Positions 11,999 through 62,074 of a DNA stretch of 64,000 nt are shown here, one piece after another. The notes beneath the pieces are model-generated. The model did not search any database. It saw nothing but the letters and a program-made list of their open reading frames with translations, and was not told the DNA's origin. Positions within the stretch are counted from its first letter, which is position 1. Every line of letters begins with the position of its first letter. Source of the stretch: a virus; the IMG/VR virus record IMGVR_UViG_3300021959_000011, positions 62,001-126,000 of that record, one strand, 5' to 3'. The translations under genes were made by a program, and so were the position numbers.

Positions 11999-12787
11999 CT
12001 AAATGTTTTTATAATATAAAATAATATCGTGGTCTGCAATAAGTTTCAGTAGAGGCCTTCTACTGAAAAAACTGTTCCATCTACTTTTCCATCTTGTTTT
12101 AAAAATCTTCCATGCTGATGTTAGATGTGTTGTATTATCCATTTCTACATGGATGTATTCTCCCATGTGCGTATAAAGTAAACCAAAAGGTACTGATGGT
12201 ACAATATCTGCACCATGCACATGTCTGTAAAATTTTGATTTGACTGATTGACAATATTTTTTTGTACCCACTCTTGGTTGTCCAAATGTATATACCTGTC
12301 CAATGTACTTTGAGCGTGCGGCAGCAACCGTGGCAAGGGCGCCACCAAGACTATGACCAGTAAAGTATACAATATCACCTTTAGTATAAGTTTCGTCTAG
12401 CACTCGTTCTACATCATTCCAGATGTTATCTAATGCACCAGCAAAACCACGATGCACCATTCCTTGTTTTTCTCCCTTAGTGGGGAAAAGATTTAAATCT
12501 GCAACAACATCTTTTAATTCAGTTGGTTCTGTACCCCTAAATGCAATAACAATAGATTTACCAGACTTGAATAACATGGCCTCTGTACCATCTACATCAA
12601 AGTATGCGAGTTTAGTAACTTTATATGATTTTAAGTGTTGTTTAACTGTTTGCTTATTATCTGACAAATAAGCAAGTGCGGAAAACAAAGACATTTGTTT
12701 TGCAATATTTCTGTCATAATTAACAGATTGTGATATACTATTCCATTTTCCGAGCTCGTCAATAAGCTCAATCTTTTTTTCTTTCAT
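11999..12787 (-). CDS. Class 3 lipase (alpha/beta hydrolase)
   Basis: Lipase_3 family, hydrolysing acylglycerols or phospholipids. 262 residues from MKEKK. I chose this start because GGAG lies 8 nt upstream and the longer ORF overlaps the HNH gene. Nucleophile elbow GHSLGGA with S146; D194 in GADIVPSVP and H253 in ADHD complete a plausible triad. The IAFRGTE oxyanion strand is present. No signal peptide. It may attack host membrane lipids from inside, in takeover or lysis. Confidence 0.8.
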   Translation of the reverse strand: MKEKKIELIDELGKWNSISQSVNYDRNIAKQMSLFSALAYLSDNKQTVKQHLKSYKVTKLAYFDVDGTEAMLFKSGKSIVIAFRGTEPTELKDVVADLNLFPTKGEKQGMVHRGFAGALDNIWNDVERVLDETYTKGDIVYFTGHSLGGALATVAAARSKYIGQVYTFGQPRVGTKKYCQSVKSKFYRHVHGADIVPSVPFGLLYTHMGEYIHVEMDNTTHLTSAWKIFKTRWKSRWNSFFSRRPLLKLIADHDIILYYKNI

Positions 12788-12791
12788 TCGT

Positions 12792-13346
12792 CTACTCCAA
12801 GTCCGTATCCCAATAAACATAATCAATCCAAGTTAGGTGCAGTTTTTGGTATTTTTCCTTACTGATACCTCTCATCAAATGGGTGTTTGATGGCACTACT
12901 GGTTTATTTATAGGATACATTCCAATCTCTTTGGTGAGTCGATTTCCTTTCTTTGTATTGCACCGCCGACATGCAGTTACAATATTATGCCAAGATGTGT
13001 TACCACCACGACTTAATGGTAATACATGATCGAATGTCAAATCTTTTGTTGGAAATTTTGTATTGCAATACTGACATTTAAATCTATCTCTTGCAAAAAC
13101 ATTAAGCCTAGTAAATCTAGGTGTCCTATGAGTTTTTACGTATGATTTAAGTGATATTACTGATGGTACATACATCTTGAAAGACGCACTATGTACAACA
13201 TGTTCATCATATTCGTGTACAACATTAACTCTTTCAAGCAAGGTAGAAGTAACTGCTTCTTGCCATGTGCAAGTAGATAAGGGCATTGTTGCCAGTGGTC
13301 TATAATCCGCATTCAGAACTAAAGTCTGAACATTGTTTGGTATCAT
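12792..13346 (-). CDS. HNH endonuclease
   Basis: 184 residues. HNH core with zinc cysteines C91/C94 (CQYC) and C126/C129 (CRRC), DHV at 106-108 and WHNIVTAC. The N-terminal segment (VLNADYRPLATMPLS) is the one seen in free-standing HNH proteins of cyanophages and bacteria. It may be a homing-type nuclease or a packaging/recombination enzyme. It sits in line with neighbouring genes with no sign of intron insertion. Confidence 0.85.
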   Translation of the reverse strand: MIPNNVQTLVLNADYRPLATMPLSTCTWQEAVTSTLLERVNVVHEYDEHVVHSASFKMYVPSVISLKSYVKTHRTPRFTRLNVFARDRFKCQYCNTKFPTKDLTFDHVLPLSRGGNTSWHNIVTACRRCNTKKGNRLTKEIGMYPINKPVVPSNTHLMRGISKEKYQKLHLTWIDYVYWDTDLE

Positions 13347-13407
13347 GAAAGTTTCCTACACAACCAACTCTATCTAATTTTATTTAGTGGAGTAAAGTTT
13401 TCCGAAG

Positions 13408-13665
13408 TTACGTTTTTGGAAACTCTATAATATTTTCTGCATTGGAAGTGCCATCATTTTTGGTCAAAAGATCAGTCATTAACCTGTCCAGTGAATCTTT
13501 AGACATTGTGATATCATTATCACCAAATAAATACTCACTATCAATGGCATTATCAACGTACCCAAGTTCTGCATCTTTTAAAAATTTTATATCTGATTCA
13601 ATCTGGTCTAAACGTTTACAGATTGCATTTAAAATTGTTAATGCAGTATCTTCGAATGGTGTCAT
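13408..13665 (-). CDS. Small helical protein of unknown function
   Basis: 85 residues with an N-terminal helix (ALTILNAICKRLDQIESDIKFL) and an acidic remainder. Preceded by a consensus early promoter. First gene of the unit that runs on to the HNH nuclease and lipase. Confidence 0.55.
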   Translation of the reverse strand: MTPFEDTALTILNAICKRLDQIESDIKFLKDAELGYVDNAIDSEYLFGDNDITMSKDSLDRLMTDLLTKNDGTSNAENIIEFPKT

Positions 13666-13694
13666 TTTAGAATCCTTTTTGTATTTTGATTAAT

Positions 13695-13723
13695 AAAGTA
13701 ACATTTTATTCATCATTTGTCAA
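13695..13723 (-). promoter_or_regulatory. Early promoter TTGACA-17-TACTTT
   Basis: -35 at 13718-13723, -10 at 13695-13700. It lies just after the stop of the CHASE2 cyclase and starts the next early unit. Confidence 0.7.
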
Positions 13724-13726
13724 GCA

Positions 13727-15769
13727 CTATTTTGTTGTTGCTATAAAAACACCATTCCAATCTTCTGGTAAATCCTGAGTTTCCATGTATTCGCACCTTT
13801 CTTTCCACATCCTGTAATAACCTTCCATACGTCCATCAAAATGGTCAACCAAACCTTCACACAAATACCCAGCGCGTACAAATTCCTTATTACGATAGTG
13901 CTTTAACATTTCATCATGTATTCTACCACTAACTCTATAGTGATTTTTAATATTATCTAATGCGGTGTAAATACTTATACCTATAGTCTTTCCTTTGACT
14001 GCAAGATCATCTAACTTCAGATAAAAGAAATCATCTTTTGTTCTATTATAGGTTTCTTCTCCAATTAACAAAACCATACCATATTCTTTACACTTTGATT
14101 CTATTCTCGCAGCAGTTGATACAGAATCCCCCAATACGTCATACGAGTGTCTTGCAGTACTTCCCATTTCACCCAAATAACCAAGACCAGTATTAATACC
14201 AGCCCCCATACCAACTGGAGGCCTACCTTCACTAGTAATTTTTTCATTGAACTTTTCCACAGCATTTAACATATCAAATGCAGTTTGTACTGCAGTCTTG
14301 GCATGGTTTGGATCATCTATAGGGGCATTATGAACATGCATACTTGCATCACCAATATATTTGATAACCATACCTTCACTATCAAGAATTGGTTGTGTGA
14401 TTGCATCCATATAACCATTCATAATCTTAGTCAAACCTTTTACGTCATCACCAAAAGATTCTCCTAATGGTGTGAAACCACGCAAATCGGAAAAACAAAT
14501 ACTAATCTCTTTTTTCATACCATCTTTGATAAGTGAAGGATTTTCTTGTAACATGCGTACAACTGTGGGAGATGCATAACCGGCAAATTGTTTTTTGATT
14601 TCTTGTTTCTCTAAAAATTCACTGATAAACTTTACTGAGTATCTAAAAGTACCTAATAAAAGTAACAAGAATGATATCGTAAGTCCATCAATCAAAAATC
14701 CATATTGATTAAAAATGTATACTGTACTGTACATTATACCCACTAATGTAAACGTAAAGAAACATAATCCAATATAAGTCCAGTTTGATAACACAATTAA
14801 TAACAGTCCAATAACTATCAATGCAGTAATTTCGCCCCAGGCCTTTGCATCTGGGTGTCTTGAAATATTTGAGTCGTTGAATACTGTGCCCAACATGACT
14901 GCCTGCATTTCGTGCGGCCATATACCACCTTTTGCAGTAGAGATAGGTTGTGCAATCCCACCAGCACTAACACCAACAAAAACAACACCACCATTAAAAT
15001 TATCTGGTAAGTTTTCACTACTCACAGAAGTATATCCCTGAGACCAATCAATCCAGATTTCACCAAGGGCGTTTGTCTGAATAGAACCAAATTGTGGAAT
15101 TCTCAGTTTATCTACGCCGAGGGGGGATAGTTTAATTTGAAATGAAGGATCTCCAGCAATAACTCTTAAAGTCTCCATTGTTACATTTGGATATAAAACT
15201 CCACCACTTTCAAACACAAGGGGAGCTCTTCTTGTTACACCATCCAATTCTGGATAAGTGTCAGTTATCCCTGTACCAAGTGCAGTACCTTCAAGTAATT
15301 CAATATTAGTTGTGATGCCAGATATACTTGGAATGAGATGCATATACTGACTATTAATAATTCCAGCGCCAGGGTTATATGGTTCATTTTTGTTCTCCTC
15401 TGTACCTATCATTGTTAAAATGACAGGATACTCATTTAAAATATAAGATAATTCTTCATCTTCTCCAAATCTATCTTTTTCGCTCATAAGTACATTAAAT
15501 ACAACTAGTCCAGCACCTCTATCGTAAATATCTTGGATAATCTCCCCATAAATACTTCGAGGAAATGGCCATTGTCCATATTCATCAATAGTTGTTTCAT
15601 CTATATTGACTGTAAAAATATTATTTTGTTGTATTGGTTGACTTGTAATAAGAGTGTCAAAATATCTTAACCTAACACTCTCAACAAAATTTGGATTGAC
15701 ATGATAGATCCATGTCAGACATGCGAGTAGTAAAATACTCCATACAGGTGAAAGTAAAACTTTTTTCAT
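13727..15769 (-). CDS. CHASE2-domain adenylate cyclase
   Basis: Membrane sensor that should make cAMP. 680 residues: N-terminal TM (about 7-24), extracytoplasmic CHASE2 domain (about 30-300), three TMs (about 310-375), then a class III cyclase domain (about 415-605). Metal aspartates D428 and D474, adenine-specifying K470 and D544, and catalytic R555 are present. The usual catalytic asparagine four residues before that arginine is replaced by S551 (V-S-T-A-A-R). The start overlaps the upstream gene (ATGA). Last gene of the curli-like operon. A sensor cyclase next to a FecR protein is a known bacterial pairing. In a phage it is very unusual. Confidence 0.9.
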   Translation of the reverse strand: MKKVLLSPVWSILLLACLTWIYHVNPNFVESVRLRYFDTLITSQPIQQNNIFTVNIDETTIDEYGQWPFPRSIYGEIIQDIYDRGAGLVVFNVLMSEKDRFGEDEELSYILNEYPVILTMIGTEENKNEPYNPGAGIINSQYMHLIPSISGITTNIELLEGTALGTGITDTYPELDGVTRRAPLVFESGGVLYPNVTMETLRVIAGDPSFQIKLSPLGVDKLRIPQFGSIQTNALGEIWIDWSQGYTSVSSENLPDNFNGGVVFVGVSAGGIAQPISTAKGGIWPHEMQAVMLGTVFNDSNISRHPDAKAWGEITALIVIGLLLIVLSNWTYIGLCFFTFTLVGIMYSTVYIFNQYGFLIDGLTISFLLLLLGTFRYSVKFISEFLEKQEIKKQFAGYASPTVVRMLQENPSLIKDGMKKEISICFSDLRGFTPLGESFGDDVKGLTKIMNGYMDAITQPILDSEGMVIKYIGDASMHVHNAPIDDPNHAKTAVQTAFDMLNAVEKFNEKITSEGRPPVGMGAGINTGLGYLGEMGSTARHSYDVLGDSVSTAARIESKCKEYGMVLLIGEETYNRTKDDFFYLKLDDLAVKGKTIGISIYTALDNIKNHYRVSGRIHDEMLKHYRNKEFVRAGYLCEGLVDHFDGRMEGYYRMWKERCEYMETQDLPEDWNGVFIATTK

Positions 15770-16041
15770 GACAACTTTTTCTTTATATACAATACTACCG
15801 CATAAACTGTTAAAAGATACACTGTTGCGATACTAACATCTACAATATGTTCTCTCATATTATATATAAATTCTATTCCTGCCTGAACATCTCCCTGACC
15901 ACCTACACCAACATTTTCTGTAATATTGATTGTTTTGCCTTCGAACCCGTCAAAGGCGCCATCCTCAATAATAATTTCACAATCGTCACATTCGCCGTCT
16001 TGCCAAGGTTCTACTGTTTGATTAATTTCAATGTCATTCAT
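15766..16041 (-). CDS. Small bitopic membrane protein
   Basis: 91 residues: acidic Cys-containing N-terminus (GECDDCEIIIEDG), a Gly-rich ITENVGVGGQGD segment, and a C-terminal TM (about 67-86) with a lysine-rich end. ATGA overlap with the cyclase gene suggests the two proteins act together, for instance as a periplasmic or membrane partner of the CHASE2 sensor. No family recognised. Confidence 0.6.
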   Translation of the reverse strand: MNDIEINQTVEPWQDGECDDCEIIIEDGAFDGFEGKTINITENVGVGGQGDVQAGIEFIYNMREHIVDVSIATVYLLTVYAVVLYIKKKLS

Positions 16042-16048
16042 TTTTTCC

Positions 16049-16747
16049 TCAATTCTGTGTCACATTTACTGTACACCCAGATGAATTAGTGCAATAATTT
16101 GTAATAGAGATTGATTTTGATGCTGGGTCTTGGTAACTTGATCCAAGTTGTTGTATATTTGCTGTCACGGGCCCGCCAGCATTTGTTACATTGATAGTTG
16201 CTGAGTTATTAAGTGAACGTTGGTAAAGAGTAACATCGTTGTCATCACCTGTCACATAGATACCACCATAGGCTACACCATAACTGTCGCTGTTATGTTT
16301 TACTGTATTACCATCACCAGTTATATAAGTCTCACTTTCTTTGTGTCCACCCCAACTACCACCACTACTATTATTGATTAACCGACTCATTACAGTATTT
16401 TCATCACCTGTTATTTCTACAATAGTTTCTCTGGTGTTGCCATTGTTTTGTCCGGCCGCATGACTAGTTCGAACTATGTTTTCATTTCCAATCATTGTCA
16501 CATCTACAACACTGTTATCACTTTTATAACCTCTACTCCACCCTACTGCATTACCATTTAAGTCAATACAATTACTGTCAGCATTAGGTGTGGCACAATA
16601 ACGAAATTCGTTATCCCGTCCATCTTGAACCACAGTAAGTTCAAGATTGTCGCCAACTTGATTGATATAAATTTCGTTACTATTGGACTTGGATGATATT
16701 AATAGTGTTATTACCAACACCAAGCCGATAGTTATATATTGCTTCAT
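16049..16747 (-). CDS. Curlin-like repeat protein (second)
   Basis: 232 residues with a signal peptide (about 1-24). Irregular repeats around I.Q.GDN, TGDENTV, TGDGNTV and TGDDNDV, about 20-35 residues apart, resemble curlin (CsgA/CsgB) repeats, where Gln/Asn ladders stack in the amyloid. The ending TVNVTQN matches repeat ends. Its 5' part overlaps the FecR gene by 68 nt in another frame. Could be the minor or nucleating subunit. Divergent from enterobacterial curlins. Confidence 0.7.
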   Translation of the reverse strand: MKQYITIGLVLVITLLISSKSNSNEIYINQVGDNLELTVVQDGRDNEFRYCATPNADSNCIDLNGNAVGWSRGYKSDNSVVDVTMIGNENIVRTSHAAGQNNGNTRETIVEITGDENTVMSRLINNSSGGSWGGHKESETYITGDGNTVKHNSDSYGVAYGGIYVTGDDNDVTLYQRSLNNSATINVTNAGGPVTANIQQLGSSYQDPASKSISITNYCTNSSGCTVNVTQN

Positions 16748-17795
16748 CTTGTTGCTCCACGTTTATCGTATACCCATATTCTTGGTTTAATTCTAAATCA
16801 ATATAATGAGTAATGGATGCATCTTCTCTACTAAACTTCCAATTTGGTTCTTCAACTTCTAATGTTATTCTTGTGGCTGGATCGTATCCAAATACTTTAT
16901 CTGCAAAAAATTCTTCGTTCTGTTTTTGTAACTCATCTTTAAATAATTCCGCCAATGCTAGGTTCATCGTGTCTAACATATCATGCAACAATTCTTGTAA
17001 ATATAAGTCAGTATTATTTAGTTCAGTTACCCAGATGTTTTTGATATCGTCTAAAAGTACATCTTCATCCAACCCATCATATTCTAAAAAGTCAATATCT
17101 AAAAAATCATAAATTTTTCGCGCCTTGCGTACAATTTCTTCTTCCTCTTCTATATATGGAGATTTCTTTCTAAGAATTAAGAGATTTGTAATATCGGATT
17201 CTTCTAAAGGTAATATTAATGGTTTTAACGGTGGGGTCCAAGATTGTTTTACAATAGTTGTTTGATAAGATTGATTCATTATAACAATACCATTATCATT
17301 TTCTACAGTAATTTCACCAGTAACACAATATCCACTTATATCACAACTAGGCAGTAATGTAACCATTGTGCCACCAATTTCATCTACAACCATTACAAAA
17401 TCCGTGCCACGCACATTAATCTTTGCACTAGGAGTTCTTATGTTTACACGCTGTCTACTATTCTTTGCAATTTGACCACTTGCGTATCTAACTGTACCCA
17501 GAGTTGCCCTTAAACCCAATCTACCAGTACGAGTATTTGGATCATAAACAAAATCATCGATCAACAATCTTGCATGTTCTGTAATATCTACTCTAGTTTC
17601 ATCAACAAAATCGATTCTCATTCTACCCTTGGCAGTAACAGCAGTATCCATAGGCATAACACCTACGCCCCTGCCACCATCAATAACTTGATTATCTCTT
17701 TCTAACACTCCACTACCACTAAACTTACCTATTTCACCGGCACTACCAAACGCATAAGTTGGTATCAACAATAATAGACTTATTATCCTAAACAC
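16680..17795 (-). CDS. Secreted FecR-domain protein
   Basis: 371 residues with a signal peptide (about 1-17). The FecR beta domain spans about 25-170: GSGVLERDNQVI, VDETRVDITEHARL, GTVRYASGQ and the hallmark RTPSAKINVRGTDF. A helical, acidic segment follows (about 205-300). Periplasmic FecR domains sense and relay signals; FecR and CHASE2 proteins often share operons in bacteria. The C-terminus (NNTINIIQVQ) looks like a curlin-type repeat, hinting at direct contact with the fibre subunits. Confidence 0.82.
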   Translation of the reverse strand: MFRIISLLLLIPTYAFGSAGEIGKFSGSGVLERDNQVIDGGRGVGVMPMDTAVTAKGRMRIDFVDETRVDITEHARLLIDDFVYDPNTRTGRLGLRATLGTVRYASGQIAKNSRQRVNIRTPSAKINVRGTDFVMVVDEIGGTMVTLLPSCDISGYCVTGEITVENDNGIVIMNQSYQTTIVKQSWTPPLKPLILPLEESDITNLLILRKKSPYIEEEEEIVRKARKIYDFLDIDFLEYDGLDEDVLLDDIKNIWVTELNNTDLYLQELLHDMLDTMNLALAELFKDELQKQNEEFFADKVFGYDPATRITLEVEEPNWKFSREDASITHYIDLELNQEYGYTINVEQQDEAIYNYRLGVGNNTINIIQVQ

Positions 17796-17796
17796 A

Positions 17797-18525
17797 TTAG
17801 TCTCTCTGGATAATATCTACTTCGGCATTATCACCCACAAATGTTGCATCAACTTTTGTATCATAAATTCCACTTTGGTTTATACTAAACCAACCGCCAC
17901 CACCAGTAATACTTAATGTAACACTATGTCCGGCACTATCACCGGCACCAGATTGGTCAATCTTTACATAATTGCCAGGAGCTTCAGTAGCTAATCCAGA
18001 ATGACCGTCAGAAACTGTACCACTTGCAAGTGAATTTTCATTGTTTATTGTCACAGTAATATCTGCGGCCTTACCATCCTGATCAACATCAATGACGTTT
18101 CCATCACCAGTAATGGTAAATACGGCAACTAGGTCTTCCGCATCGCCGGTTTCACCAATTCTGAACAGAAATTTGTTATCATCTCCAGTTGTCGCAATAT
18201 TCAATGTGACATCTTCACAATTTGTACCAGAAGTATCATCACACGTCAGATCCACAGTATTGTCATCACCAGTAAATACCCACGTACCAGTGTAACTATT
18301 ACCTTTTATCAGTGCATCAATTTCATTAAAATTACCTGTTTGAGTAATTGAGAATGTCATATCATCACCATCTAAAAGAACATCTGTTGTAGAGTCACCA
18401 AACTCATTGTCCTGACCATCTTGCGTAATAGCTAAATCTAAATTATCACCAGATTGTGTAATATAGATATCATTAGCAAATACTGGAAACGAAAAGAATA
18501 TCAATGGAATTATATATTTCCACAT
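17797..18525 (-). CDS. Curlin-like repeat protein (first)
   Basis: 242 residues, signal peptide about 1-17 (FFSFPVFA). Starts DIYITQSGDNLDLAITQDGQ, two classical curlin half-repeats, followed by further IxQxG and TGD(D/G)N units through to the C-terminus. Acidic, Gly/Asp/Asn-rich and almost without aromatic residues, as expected of an amyloid-forming secreted fibre. Lies between CsgG and FecR, so it is probably the major subunit. The family call rests on repeat pattern and neighbourhood. Confidence 0.78.
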   Translation of the reverse strand: MWKYIIPLIFFSFPVFANDIYITQSGDNLDLAITQDGQDNEFGDSTTDVLLDGDDMTFSITQTGNFNEIDALIKGNSYTGTWVFTGDDNTVDLTCDDTSGTNCEDVTLNIATTGDDNKFLFRIGETGDAEDLVAVFTITGDGNVIDVDQDGKAADITVTINNENSLASGTVSDGHSGLATEAPGNYVKIDQSGAGDSAGHSVTLSITGGGGWFSINQSGIYDTKVDATFVGDNAEVDIIQRD

Positions 18526-18546
18526 ATCTTATTTCTCCTTAATAAA

Positions 18547-19347
18547 TTATTTGAATTTCCATAATTTTTTATCAACACCTTCATAAACCAATTCTATAAT
18601 TCCCTGCTCTATCGCAGCTCTTACTGCATAATTTACAGGTTCGTTTACTGAAAAACCAGATTCTGTTTCTACGAGTTTTGTACCTAAATCCAAAAACTTA
18701 AAAACATCTGCGCCGGTTCTATAACTTGCAATAGATTTTTCTGTTGCAATACTCATTAAGACCTTACCAGTGTTAACGCTAACTAATCTCATTACGACAG
18801 TAACTGTATCTATTCTATATTCTGTTTGTGCGCCGATGCCAAGATATCTTCCACCAACACCACCTACAGCCGTATTACTGTCATAACCAACTACACCACC
18901 TTCTAAAATCAAACCCGCAAAAATCATAGGTTTTAATTTTATGGGTCCGTTTGGTAAATCCTTTTCGTATACCTCTCTTGTATTTCTAATAAGTTGTCTT
19001 TCTTTAATAAGGTTGTCCATACCAACTCTTTCAACAACCTCAAACCATTCACCCTGTCCAACATCCTGTAGGGCCTTTATAACCCAAACCTCCGAACCTT
19101 GTGTTACGGCCGAACTTAGATTTGCAATACCATCTGATGGTTTTCTCTGTCCAGTTTTATCCAAAAACTGATAGACTGCAATAGTAATTTTATCACCATC
19201 TATTGGTGGTACTGCTGCCAATCGTTCTTTGATAGGACTCTCCTGTGATACTGGAGAATCGTCCAAACTATTCAGAACATCAAGAGATTGCATTACTGCA
19301 CATCCGCCTAAAAAATTCATAAAAAATATTATAAAAAATATTCTCAT
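18547..19347 (-). CDS. csgG: CsgG, curli secretion pore lipoprotein
   Basis: 266 residues (E. coli CsgG 277). Lipoprotein signal with lipobox LGGC, acylated cysteine at 16. Recognisable CsgG blocks: KITIAVYQFLDKTGQRKP, SEVWVIKALQDVGQGEWFEVVER.GMDNLIKERQ in two pieces, GLILEGGVVGYDSN, and the pore-lining YRIDTVTVVMRLVSVNTGKV. CsgG forms the nonameric outer-membrane channel for curli subunits. Starts one base after the csgF stop. Full length with no visible break. Confidence 0.93.
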   Translation of the reverse strand: MRIFFIIFFMNFLGGCAVMQSLDVLNSLDDSPVSQESPIKERLAAVPPIDGDKITIAVYQFLDKTGQRKPSDGIANLSSAVTQGSEVWVIKALQDVGQGEWFEVVERVGMDNLIKERQLIRNTREVYEKDLPNGPIKLKPMIFAGLILEGGVVGYDSNTAVGGVGGRYLGIGAQTEYRIDTVTVVMRLVSVNTGKVLMSIATEKSIASYRTGADVFKFLDLGTKLVETESGFSVNEPVNYAVRAAIEQGIIELVYEGVDKKLWKFK

Positions 19348-19809
19348 TTAAAATCCAAATTCTCCACTGCCTGGCACAGTAATTTCTGTAACAGTACCAT
19401 CATCACCAACAATAGTTAGTGTGATTTCACCAGTAGTTTCATCTCTAATCCAACTAATAGTTGAACCTTCAATCGATGCTGTACCTGTATTTGAACAAGT
19501 ATCAGTACAATCTGCAAACATCGAATCTACCATCTGTTTAGAAAGTTGTGCGTAAATTCTAGATTCAATGTTACGAATAAATTTATTTAGAGTTGTATTA
19601 TTCAATTCTCTTTCTATTCGTGCGGCCTCAGATTCTGCATCTTTTCGAAGTTCTTCTTTTCTATTATGTTGCAACTGTTCAACACTCAGTACATGAGTAG
19701 AATATCCATTACCATAATGAAATGCAGGGTTCTTAAATCCCCATGTCATTTCAGAACCATATACTGGAAATGTTAATAATAATATCACTAATATAAAAAA
19801 GATTTTCAT
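19348..19809 (-). CDS. csgF: CsgF, curli assembly factor
   Basis: 153 residues with a signal peptide (about 1-18). The mature start, MTWGFKNPAFHYGNGY, matches the CsgF N-terminus that inserts in the CsgG pore (family pattern F.NPxFGGNP). The C-terminus has two beta strands (TTGEITLTIVGDDGTVTEITV), as in the family. Contains a CTDTCS cysteine pair not typical of E. coli CsgF. Gene order csgF-csgG-curlin supports the call. No CsgE homologue is visible. Confidence 0.88.
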   Translation of the reverse strand: MKIFFILVILLLTFPVYGSEMTWGFKNPAFHYGNGYSTHVLSVEQLQHNRKEELRKDAESEAARIERELNNTTLNKFIRNIESRIYAQLSKQMVDSMFADCTDTCSNTGTASIEGSTISWIRDETTGEITLTIVGDDGTVTEITVPGSGEFGF

Positions 19810-19817
19810 AATTATTC

Positions 19818-20108
19818 CTACTTATCTTTATTCTTTAAAAACTCATCTATTTCTTCTTCAGTTGGTATTTTTTGTTCTTTAGATTGTAAAATCATATTTA
19901 ATTTTGTATTTAGTCTAATTAAATCATTATCCATCATTCTTATGCGATCAATTAATGCAATCAAAGTCATATGAGATTCTTCGATTACAGGGTCGACTTC
20001 CTTAGTAACCCAATTCCAAATATAAAATATGAAATATCCTAGTCCTACCGCAGCGATTATTGGAAATCCATACTGCGATACTAAATCACCTAAATTTTGA
20101 TCTGGCAT
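19818..20108 (-). CDS. Small membrane protein, BhlA/holin-like
   Basis: 96 residues: one TM (about 14-33, FPIIAAVGLGYFIFYIWNW), then an amphipathic coiled coil. Paralogous in layout to the protein at 20480-20767, both starting L.S..GFPI.A. Topology recalls BhlA/UviB holin-like proteins. Shares one base with the upstream gene. It could help lysis, or could stand in for an accessory factor of the secretion system. Confidence 0.6.
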   Translation of the reverse strand: MPDQNLGDLVSQYGFPIIAAVGLGYFIFYIWNWVTKEVDPVIEESHMTLIALIDRIRMMDNDLIRLNTKLNMILQSKEQKIPTEEEIDEFLKNKDK

Positions 20109-20311
20109 TATTCTGACTCAGACAAATCTTCTGGATTACATCTCATCAACCAACCATGTTCATTTACAACAAACTTATCGCCGGGCTTATAAAGGTGATA
20201 CTCCTTTACAGAATTTCCATCCTTATCCATTCCCATCACTTCGCCTGGCCAATCACCTTTGACTGTAAAATTATTGCCGGCCTGCTCAATACTATATTCA
20301 ACCCATAACAT
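20108..20311 (-). CDS. 67-aa hypothetical protein
   Basis: Starts at MLWVEYSIEQAGNN within the overlapping end of the upstream gene. The longer in-frame ORF reads antilogously through that gene and is unlikely. Contains two SH3-like beta repeats (KGDWPGEVMGMDKDGNSV, YKPGDKFVVNEHG). Its upstream neighbour has a similar GDVYRVGPNG motif, suggesting related small beta-barrel domains. Function unknown. Confidence 0.55.
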   Translation of the reverse strand: MLWVEYSIEQAGNNFTVKGDWPGEVMGMDKDGNSVKEYHLYKPGDKFVVNEHGWLMRCNPEDLSESE

Positions 20312-20477
20312 TTTCAGCACCAATTTTTTCAAAGTACCCATTTGGGCCAACTCTATAAACATCACCGATTTGTAATTCAACATCATCAATGATAAAAAAT
20401 TTATCATCTGGATTTTTATTTGTCAAAATGCGAAAACCATTTTGAAATTTCATTAGTAGTAAATCTTTCCACAACAT
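20298..20477 (-). CDS. 59-aa small beta-rich protein
   Basis: MLWKDLLLMKFQNGFRILTN start; DDVELQIGDVYRVGPNGYFE looks like an SH3-like strand pair. Overlaps the following gene by 14 nt and follows the upstream gene by 2 nt, so it fits the operon. Function unknown. Confidence 0.55.
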   Translation of the reverse strand: MLWKDLLLMKFQNGFRILTNKNPDDKFFIIDDVELQIGDVYRVGPNGYFEKIGAENVMG

Positions 20478-20479
20478 AT

Positions 20480-20767
20480 TTAGTCCTTTCTAGCATCTTT
20501 TTGTCCATCTGCCCTTGCAATTCTATTTAAATCTGCAGGGAGCATTGGAATATTAAATGAACGGCACATTAATATATCTATTCTCAAAAGTTCATTATTC
20601 ATCGTTTTCACTCTATTATCAAGAGACTTTACGAATCCTCTTTGGGTACGGATATCATCTAAGACTCCGGCCAATATGAATTTCAATGTTAGGAACACAA
20701 AAAATCCACCCGCCAAAGCGGATGCAATTGGAAACCCCACATCACTGACCAAATCTAAAATATCCAT
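20480..20767 (-). CDS. Small membrane protein, paralogue of 19818-20108
   Basis: 95 residues with one TM (about 12-32, FPIASALAGGFFVFLTLKFI), then a helical segment with RTQRGFVKSLDNRVKTMNNE. Same layout as the protein at 19818-20108. Preceded by an exact late promoter (20788-20795). Possible holin-like role. Confidence 0.6.
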   Translation of the reverse strand: MDILDLVSDVGFPIASALAGGFFVFLTLKFILAGVLDDIRTQRGFVKSLDNRVKTMNNELLRIDILMCRSFNIPMLPADLNRIARADGQKDARKD

Positions 20768-20787
20768 AATAGTTTATCCTCAAAACT

Positions 20788-20795
20788 ATTTATAA
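20788..20795 (-). promoter_or_regulatory. T4-type late promoter TATAAATA
   Basis: Exact late -10 box 20 bp upstream of the gene starting at 20767. The tightly packed genes from there to 13727 include the curli set, so it may drive the whole block late in infection. Confidence 0.7.
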
Positions 20796-20815: not shown

Positions 20816-21292
20816 TTATCCTTGGGCCGACATGATAAGAAACACAATTAATGCCAATATTCCTGATAGACAAAGTATTAAAAATATAATTAATAGAAAT
20901 TCAAAAAACTTTTTACGTCTTTCCATTTGTTTATAAATGGTTTCTTCTCTTTCTTTTCGAATATTTCTACGCAACTCTACCATTTCTTTCCACGTACCAT
21001 AACCAAAACGGTTATTCAGTAGTGCCTGTAGGTCTGCCTCTTGTTCTGCGAGTTTCTTTTTATGAATAATTATCTGGAGGGCCTCTTCTTCGACAGAACC
21101 AGAAGAAAAAAGTTTAGTAAATAGTGGGGGATTTTTTCTTTGACTCTCTGCTCGAGTCAAATCTGCTGCAGCACCATACCAACGACCAAGATGACCGGCG
21201 ACTTCTTCCAAGTCTCTTCCGGCCGATACTAATTTACGTATACCATTGTATGCTGTAGTTGCAGCAGTTATTGCTGTTATGGGGTCAATCAT
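20816..21292 (-). CDS. Conserved membrane-tail protein of marine T4-like phages
   Basis: 158 residues. MIDPITAITAATTAYNGIRK start, then AGRDLEEVAGHLGRWYGAA, a charged coiled coil, and a C-terminal TM (about 130-153). I recall this layout (DPxTAI...GRD.E..A..LGRW) as a common hypothetical protein of cyanophages and pelagiphages. Late promoter 21381-21388 upstream. Possibly lysis- or virion-related. Confidence 0.65.
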   Translation of the reverse strand: MIDPITAITAATTAYNGIRKLVSAGRDLEEVAGHLGRWYGAAADLTRAESQRKNPPLFTKLFSSGSVEEEALQIIIHKKKLAEQEADLQALLNNRFGYGTWKEMVELRRNIRKEREETIYKQMERRKKFFEFLLIIFLILCLSGILALIVFLIMSAQG

Positions 21293-21380: not shown

Positions 21381-21388
21381 TATTTATA
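21381..21388 (-). promoter_or_regulatory. T4-type late promoter TATAAATA
   Basis: Exact late box about 90 bp upstream of the gene starting at 21292. The 21293-21380 interval holds no ORF. Confidence 0.6.
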
Positions 21389-25644: not shown

Positions 25645-25979
25645 TTAGAGTTAAAGTACGACTACTTCTGTTGCCAAGTGAGCCGCCAACTCCGTTAGAA
25701 TCAAGCTGCGATAGCCATCTCTACAGGTGCAAAATTATCGTTTGCATTTATTATTGTTGACCGAATAACGTAGGTCATCACGGCAATCTACTCTCATCTC
25801 TACACACCTGTCGATCCTAGTTCGCCCCCATCATAAATGCACTAACTTCGACCGCCACTTACGGGCCATCTATGTTCTGCAAAACTTCCTGTTGCAGCAG
25901 GACATAGTGCATTTATGGTGGAGGCGTTGGGTACTGCCCCCAAGTCCAGTATGTATGTTGAATCGTATCAACGACTACA
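25645..25979 (-). ncRNA. ssrA: Permuted two-piece tmRNA (alphaproteobacterial type)
   Basis: Order on the minus strand is acceptor piece, spacer, coding piece. The acceptor piece ends CGCCTCC-A-CCA (CCA 25916-25918; stem 25920-25926). The coding piece starts GGGGGCG (25829-25823). The two form a 7-bp acceptor stem with a G-U wobble at the third pair, the alanine identity signal. GGATCGACAGG follows as the D-loop region. The tag frame at 25745-25701 reads ANDNFAPVEMAIAA then TGA. A TGACC/GGTCA hairpin precedes it. Outer ends (about 25979 and 25645) are estimates. It would rescue stalled ribosomes and tag proteins for proteolysis. A consensus promoter lies upstream. Confidence 0.93.
25830..25915 (-). 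other. tmRNA intervening spacer with 13-bp inverted repeat
   Basis: CATAAATGCACTA (25832-25844) pairs perfectly with TAGTGCATTTATG (25905-25917), bringing the acceptor and coding pieces together for processing. A CTGCAA/TTGCAG hairpin lies inside. This is the segment removed to give two-piece tmRNA. Confidence 0.85.
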
Positions 25980-25985
25980 AATATA

Positions 25986-26014
25986 TTTATACACTATACT
26001 CTGTAAAATGTCAA
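25986..26014 (-). promoter_or_regulatory. tmRNA promoter TTGACA-17-TATAAA
   Basis: -35 at 26009-26014, -10 at 25986-25991. The -10 overlaps an exact TATAAATA late box (25984-25991), so the tmRNA could be made both early and late. Confidence 0.82.
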
Positions 26015-26047
26015 TACATTTCTATATGAAATATAGTGTGTTGTATT

Positions 26048-61206: not shown

Positions 61207-62074
61207 ATTCTTGTTCCTTAAAATTTGATATCTCATCCATCATGAGTACCATTTTGTTTTCTATAAAATAGTTAAATACTTTTTGCATATCACCTTCGGG
61301 AGTTTTACTAAACTGAGATAAAACTTCTTCTTGTATTGCAGCGGGCACGAATGTTAAATCCACTAACTGTTCGTTTCTACGATATCGTGCCAACATATTT
61401 GCATCACAAAAATCTTCAGGGTTTCTACCAGTATCCAACCAATCTTCTAGTTTTTTCTTAGATAAAGGTTTTTGTCTTTTTTCGTTTACAAAAACATCAT
61501 CATCAGAAAGAACATTAGGAACACCATCACCACGATCTCCGCGAATAATATGTTCACGAATATATTTATAAGGGTCTTCTGTCACTAAAAATTTCTTTAG
61601 AATAGGACTATATTGAGTCACATTAGGATATCGTTGCAACTGTTTAAAGTCTTTATCACTTGAAATTATAAGTATTTTCTCCTTAGTAGAAAACTGTTTA
61701 GTAAGAGTACCAATGATATCATCAGCCTCAGTCCTATCTACCTCGATAATTTTATAAGGAAATACCTTACGCAAATCTTGTTTTGTCTGCGTAATAGTAT
61801 TAAAGATAAGATTCCAATCATAACCAGAATCTTCTCTTGTTTTTTTACGCATACCTTTGTAGTAAGGAAATACATCCTTTCTCCAAAAGTTTTTATTGTC
61901 GCAACATATTACAATGTTACCATAATCATTCGCAAATCTTTTCTTGATACTAAGAATACTGTTTAGTATCATATGTTTTATTAGGTTTTGATCAAGCTCT
62001 TCTTCATCAGATAACTTGTTTATTTGTACCATTAGATTTGAAATGACCACTTGATTTAGGTCGATCAATATCAT
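61190..62074 (-). CDS. rnh: T4-type RNase H (FEN-family 5' nuclease)
   Basis: Removes lagging-strand RNA primers. 294 residues (T4 Rnh 305). ICCDNKNFWRKDVFPYYKGM, EVDRTEADDIIGTL and ISSDKDFKQLQ carry the metal-binding acidic residues; GDRGDGVPNVL is the helix-hairpin-helix-side motif. Both an early and a late-type box precede it. Confidence 0.9.
   Translation of the reverse strand: MILIDLNQVVISNLMVQINKLSDEEELDQNLIKHMILNSILSIKKRFANDYGNIVICCDNKNFWRKDVFPYYKGMRKKTREDSGYDWNLIFNTITQTKQDLRKVFPYKIIEVDRTEADDIIGTLTKQFSTKEKILIISSDKDFKQLQRYPNVTQYSPILKKFLVTEDPYKYIREHIIRGDRGDGVPNVLSDDDVFVNEKRQKPLSKKKLEDWLDTGRNPEDFCDANMLARYRRNEQLVDLTFVPAAIQEEVLSQFSKTPEGDMQKVFNYFIENKMVLMMDEISNFKEQEYETFS

Follow-up and report, generated by a model that had tools for sequence, protein, structure and literature searches.

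Why would a marine virus devote part of its genome to a curli-type secretion system, and what would be exported through it? The question is raised by virus record IMGVR_UViG_3300021959_000011 (140,926 bases), of which positions 62,001 to 126,000, a stretch of 64,000 nucleotides hereafter called the window, were analysed. On the minus strand of the window, positions 13,727 to 20,767 hold what reads as one operon, composed successively of TMa, orf99, TMb, CsgF, CsgG, curlin-1, a FecR-domain protein, curlin-2, a small orphan open reading frame (ORF) named TMc, and a CHASE2 adenylate cyclase (Table 1). Judged from their sequences, the identity of these parts is near certain, and we consider it reasonably probable that the operon serves, late in infection, to bring adhesive curlin-repeat proteins to the surface of the infected cell.

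The secretion channel and its late promoter

The channel lipoprotein CsgG, its partner CsgF, and a curlin-repeat substrate, by which a type VIII secretion system (T8SS) is recognized, were all found. CsgG and CsgF match the profiles PF03783 and PF10614 far beyond chance, so that the phage-borne T8SS set proposed in a preliminary description of the locus holds. CsgG aligns with the E. coli CsgG structures (E 6e-49) and bears the lipobox LGGC, whose Cys16 is invariant in 28/28 phage CsgGs, while CsgF has a signal peptide-like start and the conserved N-terminus MTWGFKNPAF, comprising the FKNPxF segment with P28 and F30 invariant. The intact lipobox and the pore-inserting start of CsgF, both announced in the preliminary description, are thereby borne out. 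A loop of CsgG reads NLSSAV here and NFSTAV in E. coli; a phage-specific change of the constriction was nevertheless rejected because most alphaproteobacterial CsgGs have the same Leu, the loop pattern having been read in part of the sequences.

As already noticed in that description, CsgE and CsgC are not seen: searches of the whole 140.9-kb record found neither, although both matched in the E. coli control. Since alphaproteobacterial curli systems have been reported without CsgC, CsgD, and CsgE (PMC9599517), this excludes only the gammaproteobacterial (E. coli) subtype, with its CsgE gate and its CsgC. The lack of a CsgE gate is also what would favour an ungated CsgG that admits nutrients or cofactors to the host during infection, an idea raised in PMC7029224 and PMC9599517. 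Such an uptake pore would however leave the conserved CsgF, the two curlins, and the curlin-like end of the FecR protein unexplained, and we hold it to be very improbable.

Regarding timing, the T4-type late promoter TATAAATA lies 20 nt before TMa, as the preliminary description had it, and this octamer is absent elsewhere on both strands from 12912 to 20787. Because this late promoter is specific to TMa and the next one on the same strand lies past the cyclase, the operon probably spans TMa to cyclase and is probably expressed late. The window as a whole contains 17 such promoters versus 8.35 expected, a number reached in 0/100 shuffles. Among relatives, the octamer stands near the TMa start in 67/123 cases, the rate being 1.3% in 160-base windows drawn at random and 0-9% for other genes, and CsgF has an octamer of its own in 7/29 loci where TMb is not directly before it versus 2/78 otherwise; in these and the following counts, loci are shared among searches, the counts are hence not independent, and the contigs are mostly fragments. 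The same gene order is found in the pelagiphage HTVC008M, in the Methylophilales phage EXVC044M (Melnitz), and in the majority of 151 tabulated CsgG loci, and the ratio of nonsynonymous to synonymous substitution rates (dN/dS) is low in most comparisons for CsgG, CsgF, curlin-1, the FecR protein, the cyclase, TMa, and TMb.

Table 1. Features of the operon in the window (TM, transmembrane)
Feature	Position	Strand	Description	Evidence
Late promoter	20787..20794	-	T4-type TATAAATA, first operon element	exact octamer, 20 nt before the TMa ATG
TMa	20480..20767	-	95 aa; a single TM helix, a probable coiled coil after it, and DAR[KR]D at the C-terminus
orf99	20108..20407	-	small ORF between TMa and TMb, start codon uncertain
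TMb	19818..20108	-	96 aa, TMa paralogue, predicted membrane segment then coiled coil	PHROG 18771
CsgF	19348..19809	-	CsgF	PF10614 E 1.1e-12, 48.7 bits vs cut-off 25.8
CsgG	18547..19347	-	outer-membrane secretion channel lipoprotein	PF03783 E 2.4e-47, 161 bits vs cut-off 20.8
Curlin-1	17797..18525	-	conserved curlin-repeat protein with signal peptide	PF07012 E 6.2e-10, 39.3 bits vs cut-off 20.7
FecR protein	16680..17795	-	FecR-domain protein, periplasmic or exported, between curlins	PF04773 E 6e-8
Curlin-2	16049..16747	-	curlin-repeat protein, variable, with a Cys pair at the C-terminus	PF07012 E 7.4e-4, 19.9 bits vs cut-off 20.7
TMc	15766..16041	-	91-aa orphan ORF, C-terminal TM, between curlin-2 and cyclase
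Cyclase	13727..15769	-	CHASE2-domain adenylate cyclase	PF05226 E 1.2e-29, PF00211 E 3.4e-17

The candidate exported proteins

Two curlin-like proteins had been announced in the preliminary description. Curlin-1 stands, its PF07012 score being above the cut-off; curlin-2 by itself falls just below, and the curlin repeat is recognized in 17/23 sequences of its family alignment, the best at 5e-12. The structural check likewise came out in part only: the AlphaFold2 model of curlin-1 is a confident all-beta repeat, with paired strands every ~20-27 residues (predicted local distance difference test score 83, predicted template modelling score 0.82), but a Foldseek comparison with the Protein Data Bank (PDB) returned no significant match. 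The sequence profile of curlin-1 finds a curlin-repeat protein of known structure, 8c50 (E 1.4e-4), and its match to CsgA (8enq, E 0.096) is weak.

The relatives of curlin-2, up to 518 aa long, differ in their N-terminal regions, after which come curlin repeats and the C-terminal Cys pair (C219 and C225 here), which is invariant. PA14 domains were detected in 4/24 long relatives, including gp018 of HTVC008M, with GLEYA too in one of them. PA14 and GLEYA are domains of adhesins and of carbohydrate binding, and curlin-2 is for that reason pointed to as a surface adhesin. Its dN/dS is 0.44-0.55 versus three relatives and 0.25 versus a fourth, against ~0.03-0.18 for core genes in the same comparisons, values that are rough since dS is near saturation in several of them. 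On this evidence, curlin-2 appears as the variable, modular, and often fast-evolving part of the system.

The same anatomy would also suit surface masking, in which a coat of exported curlin-repeat proteins blocks other phages (superinfection exclusion) and no cells are glued together. A fast and modular curlin-2 would be at home in a surface arms race, and the idea is found in PMC9599517; late expression, however, is a poor time for exclusion, and the PA14 and GLEYA domains suggest binding over passive coating, which makes masking an unlikely explanation in our eyes.

Signal peptide-like N-termini recur among the module proteins. It can also be observed that the presumably exported proteins (16049-18525 and 19348-19809) bear paired Cys, which are invariant at the curlin-2 C-terminus and frequent among FecR and CsgF members; this suggests a periplasmic oxidation of these proteins.

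The membrane pair, the FecR protein, and the cyclase

The preliminary inventory, drawn up for 15766-20767, named genes that are real but omitted or left unlabelled the FecR gene, the CHASE2 cyclase, and the nature of TMa and TMb. The latter two are paralogues (hhalign 98.9%), and TMa shows a dN/dS of 0.03 versus close relatives where it could be computed. From their position and number, they are very probably the genes named 'histidine kinase' (HK) in PMC9599517. The kinase label was rejected here: no HisKA or HATPase match was obtained at E<=1 in 50 homologues (23 of them of TMa), and no histidine is found among the invariant or nearly invariant columns of the homologues.

The linkage of the pair to the module was followed from both sides. 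Starting from TMb, CsgG was found in 61 of the 80 best viral loci, the other 19 being short or cut, many of them showing the cyclase side; starting from CsgG, TMa and TMb were both present in 129/153 loci, and the 18 loci with neither are all truncated, by the end either of the contig or of the stretch retrieved. A whole-record search of 13 records recovered the pair in six, including all the long contigs. Linkage to the module is kept even where, in some phages, the pair has been inverted or lies behind the cyclase. On the bacterial side, where neighbourhoods were read within 9 kb, TMa-TMb was absent among the T8SS loci fetched, except in eight contigs of metagenome-assembled genomes (MAGs; L165, L166, L168, L170, L206, L209, L213, and L231), which are probably misbinned phage contigs because they bear phage-type modules with TMa and TMb. 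Distant bacterial relatives are undercounted in these readings, since the neighbour hidden Markov models were built from phage sequences. Besides, a TMb search of 385 genomes from the class of a Hyphomonas MAG discussed below gave none, while the same query matched in phage records. As the pair is linked to phage T8SS genes wherever this could be judged, and is not found beside bacterial ones, TMa-TMb looks like an obligate, phage-specific partner of the T8SS.

This linkage bears directly on the proposal that the csg genes act in lysis, put forward for Melnitz (PMC9004378). The CsgG pore, with or without CsgF, would then time lysis, with TMa and TMb as holin-like inner-membrane partners, in line with the late promoter and with two small proteins that combine a TM segment with a coiled coil and have a weak, sub-threshold similarity to holin and YvrJ. 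A free-standing holin was nonetheless rejected for TMa and TMb: an occurrence independent of the curli module was not seen in the 80 best loci, where every pair was accompanied by T8SS genes unless its contig was short or cut, unlike what is expected of an ordinary holin. In addition, pinholins work in the inner membrane and CsgG belongs to the outer one, and neither two curlins nor a FecR protein, a cyclase, or PA14 fusions would be needed for lysis. The lysis reading finally loses its main premise, missing curlins, because two curlin-repeat genes are annotated in the Melnitz record, and we regard it as quite unlikely. Among the functions evoked in the preliminary description, the export of adhesive proteins thus fits the anatomy best, the lysis idea being weaker.

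The FecR protein ends with a curlin-like half repeat, NNTINIIQVQ, and the corresponding hxhxQ ending is found at the C-terminus of 102/109 FecR homologues, 100/117 curlin-1, and 77/87 curlin-2 proteins, compared to 224/2778 (8%) of the other ORFs. In its AlphaFold2 model, a FecR domain and a beta-structured C-terminal region are separated by a middle part of poor definition, and the model matches the FecR-like domains 6ovk and 4m0n (PupR, BDI_1681) with E about 1e-4; the N-domain may resemble the adhesin retention module 5ix9, with a Foldseek probability of 1.00 but an E of only 0.015 (0.67 by sequence). The curlin-like tail may dock the protein to the fibre or the channel. The cyclase, found at the same position in HTVC008M and Melnitz, keeps the FSDLRGF and KYIGD motifs common in its homologues; many phage copies end the motif GD.V[SN] with Ser (GDSVS).

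Taken together, these data are compatible with a phage-adapted T8SS operon that would be switched on late from the single promoter before TMa, and in which CsgG and CsgF would form an outer-membrane channel sending curlin-repeat proteins to the cell surface, curlin-1 being the conserved body of the fibre and curlin-2 its variable adhesive subunit. The FecR protein, with its curlin-like end, and the CHASE2 cyclase would probably detect ongoing export or assembly on the periplasmic side and signal to the cytoplasm via cyclic AMP (cAMP), and TMa-TMb could be a phage-specific inner-membrane partner, perhaps a substitute for the CsgE gate or a clamp at the export site. The benefit would most likely be adhesion, infected cells or their debris holding other cells. 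Several points weigh against this export of adhesive proteins. The strongest, as far as cell-cell adhesion is concerned, is that clumping was not seen in Melnitz-infected cultures (PMC9004378). Furthermore, the phage curlin repeats are degenerate and the curlin-1 model has no significant PDB match; curlin-2 evolves slowly in one close pair (dN/dS 0.09), next to higher values that are themselves rough; CsgE and CsgC are missing from the record; and no cAMP- or cyclic nucleotide-binding protein through which the cyclase could act was found in the phage. A bolder version, which we find rather unlikely, is that TMa-TMb and the curlin-tailed FecR protein replace CsgE as the inner-membrane and periplasmic gate of an envelope-spanning adhesin launcher, with curlin-2 as a swappable adhesin, carrying PA14 or other heads, on a curli-like fibre late in infection.

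The known hosts of the phage relatives are SAR11 and OM43. Phages of SAR11-like hosts spend several kb on an exporter of surface proteins whose parts are lacking in their hosts according to published accounts. If this exporter is functional, cells that rank among the most abundant free-living ones of the ocean would become sticky upon infection, which would affect their aggregation, the infection of their neighbours, and gene exchange.

As for the remaining genes, orf99 occurs in a minority of relatives, usually at an unchanged position. TMc was present, among the screened loci, only in L003, whose CsgG is 100% identical, and a search of phage records gave no match; its belonging to the secretion system is uncertain. 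Directly upstream of the operon, 20816-21292 (-) encodes a 158-aa protein with a C-terminal TM segment and its own TATAAATA at 21381-21388, found near the curli module in few relatives. Elsewhere in the window, an ORF with a lipase-like GHSLGG motif was spotted by eye at 11999-12826 (-), and a two-piece (permuted) transfer-messenger RNA (tmRNA) of alphaproteobacterial type, with the tag ANDNFAPVEMAIAA, lies at 25655-26018 (-); Melnitz likewise has a two-piece tmRNA, close to its csg genes. Searches of the phage's genome for Glyco_hydro_108 and peptidase S77 gave no match, nor did their controls. The record also contains baseplate and tail-fibre genes, and its T4-like nuclease gene is nearest to that of Melnitz, then to those of cyanomyoviruses. 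By these genes, the excess of late promoters, and the tmRNA, it groups with the T4-like marine myoviruses.

Comparison with known systems

The possible novelty of the whole set, left to be checked in the preliminary description, did not survive, the phage T8SS module being already described in pelagiphages (PMC7029224, PMC9599517) and in Melnitz (PMC9004378). CsgF and CsgG plus hypothetical genes were reported in 2020 (PMC7029224), and the order HK-CsgF-CsgG-CsgA/B-FecR-CsgA/B-adenylate cyclase (AC) in podo- and myoviruses in 2022, in a study that also assigned the module to an alphaproteobacterial source and drew on ocean metatranscriptomes for evidence that it is expressed (PMC9599517). The HTVC008M/HTVC023P-type module (PMC7029224, PMC9599517) shares with the window the order short gene(s)-CsgF-CsgG-curlin-FecR-curlin-adenylate cyclase. 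It differs in that orf99 and TMc are extra in the window, that the CsgG of HTVC008M is 54% identical to the one described here, and that the short genes are labelled histidine kinase there while the pair here has no kinase domain. Melnitz has the same order as well, with both curlins and FecR annotated in its record and a first curlin-repeat protein 54% identical to curlin-1; csgA and csgB were stated to be absent from it (PMC9004378), which its record and our matches contradict. The comparison therefore removes a published premise and questions the 'histidine kinase' label.

More distant cases were also encountered. The Brevundimonas jumbo phages (L084, phage Kabachok) have a CsgG-like gene of 28% identity, possibly HfaB-like, and no match to the curlin, CsgF, or FecR proteins of the window was found at their loci. 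The 1,499-base 'Salmonella phage' record OR851715.1 bears a csgG-like gene with 41% identity to the window CsgG and could be a short contig of host DNA.

With E. coli curli (csgBAC/csgDEFG), the phage module has the CsgG family, the CsgF family, and curlin repeats in common, but it has no CsgE or CsgC, two long divergent curlins, and an added FecR protein, CHASE2 cyclase, and TM pair. FecR, AC, and HK were stated to be absent from canonical bacterial curli operons (PMC9599517). On contig L182, which is 705 kb long and bears the title Hyphomonas sp. TMED17, ordinary bacterial genes flank a locus with the order CsgF-CsgG-curlin-FecR-CHASE2 adenylate cyclase; unlike the phage module, it has no TMa or TMb, a single long curlin, and a FecR protein without the curlin-like end, and the GD.V[SN] motif of its cyclase ends with Asn (GDAVN). 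Given this chromosomal locus, FecR and cyclase are unlikely to be phage additions; because it has both of them and no pair, this one locus makes it probable that they are ancestral and that the TM pair arose later, in phages. Among 299 genomes of the order to which the Hyphomonas MAG belongs, 18 matched the FecR protein, over the FecR domain part only except in the genome of L182. In the three phage studies (PMC7029224, PMC9004378, PMC9599517), neither TMa-TMb as a phage-only membrane pair nor a fast-changing, adhesin-like curlin-2 was singled out; the curlin-like FecR end and the Hyphomonas chromosomal module without the TM pair are new besides, and the pair, the PA14-curlin fusions, and the bacterial module of the same order offer handles for tests.

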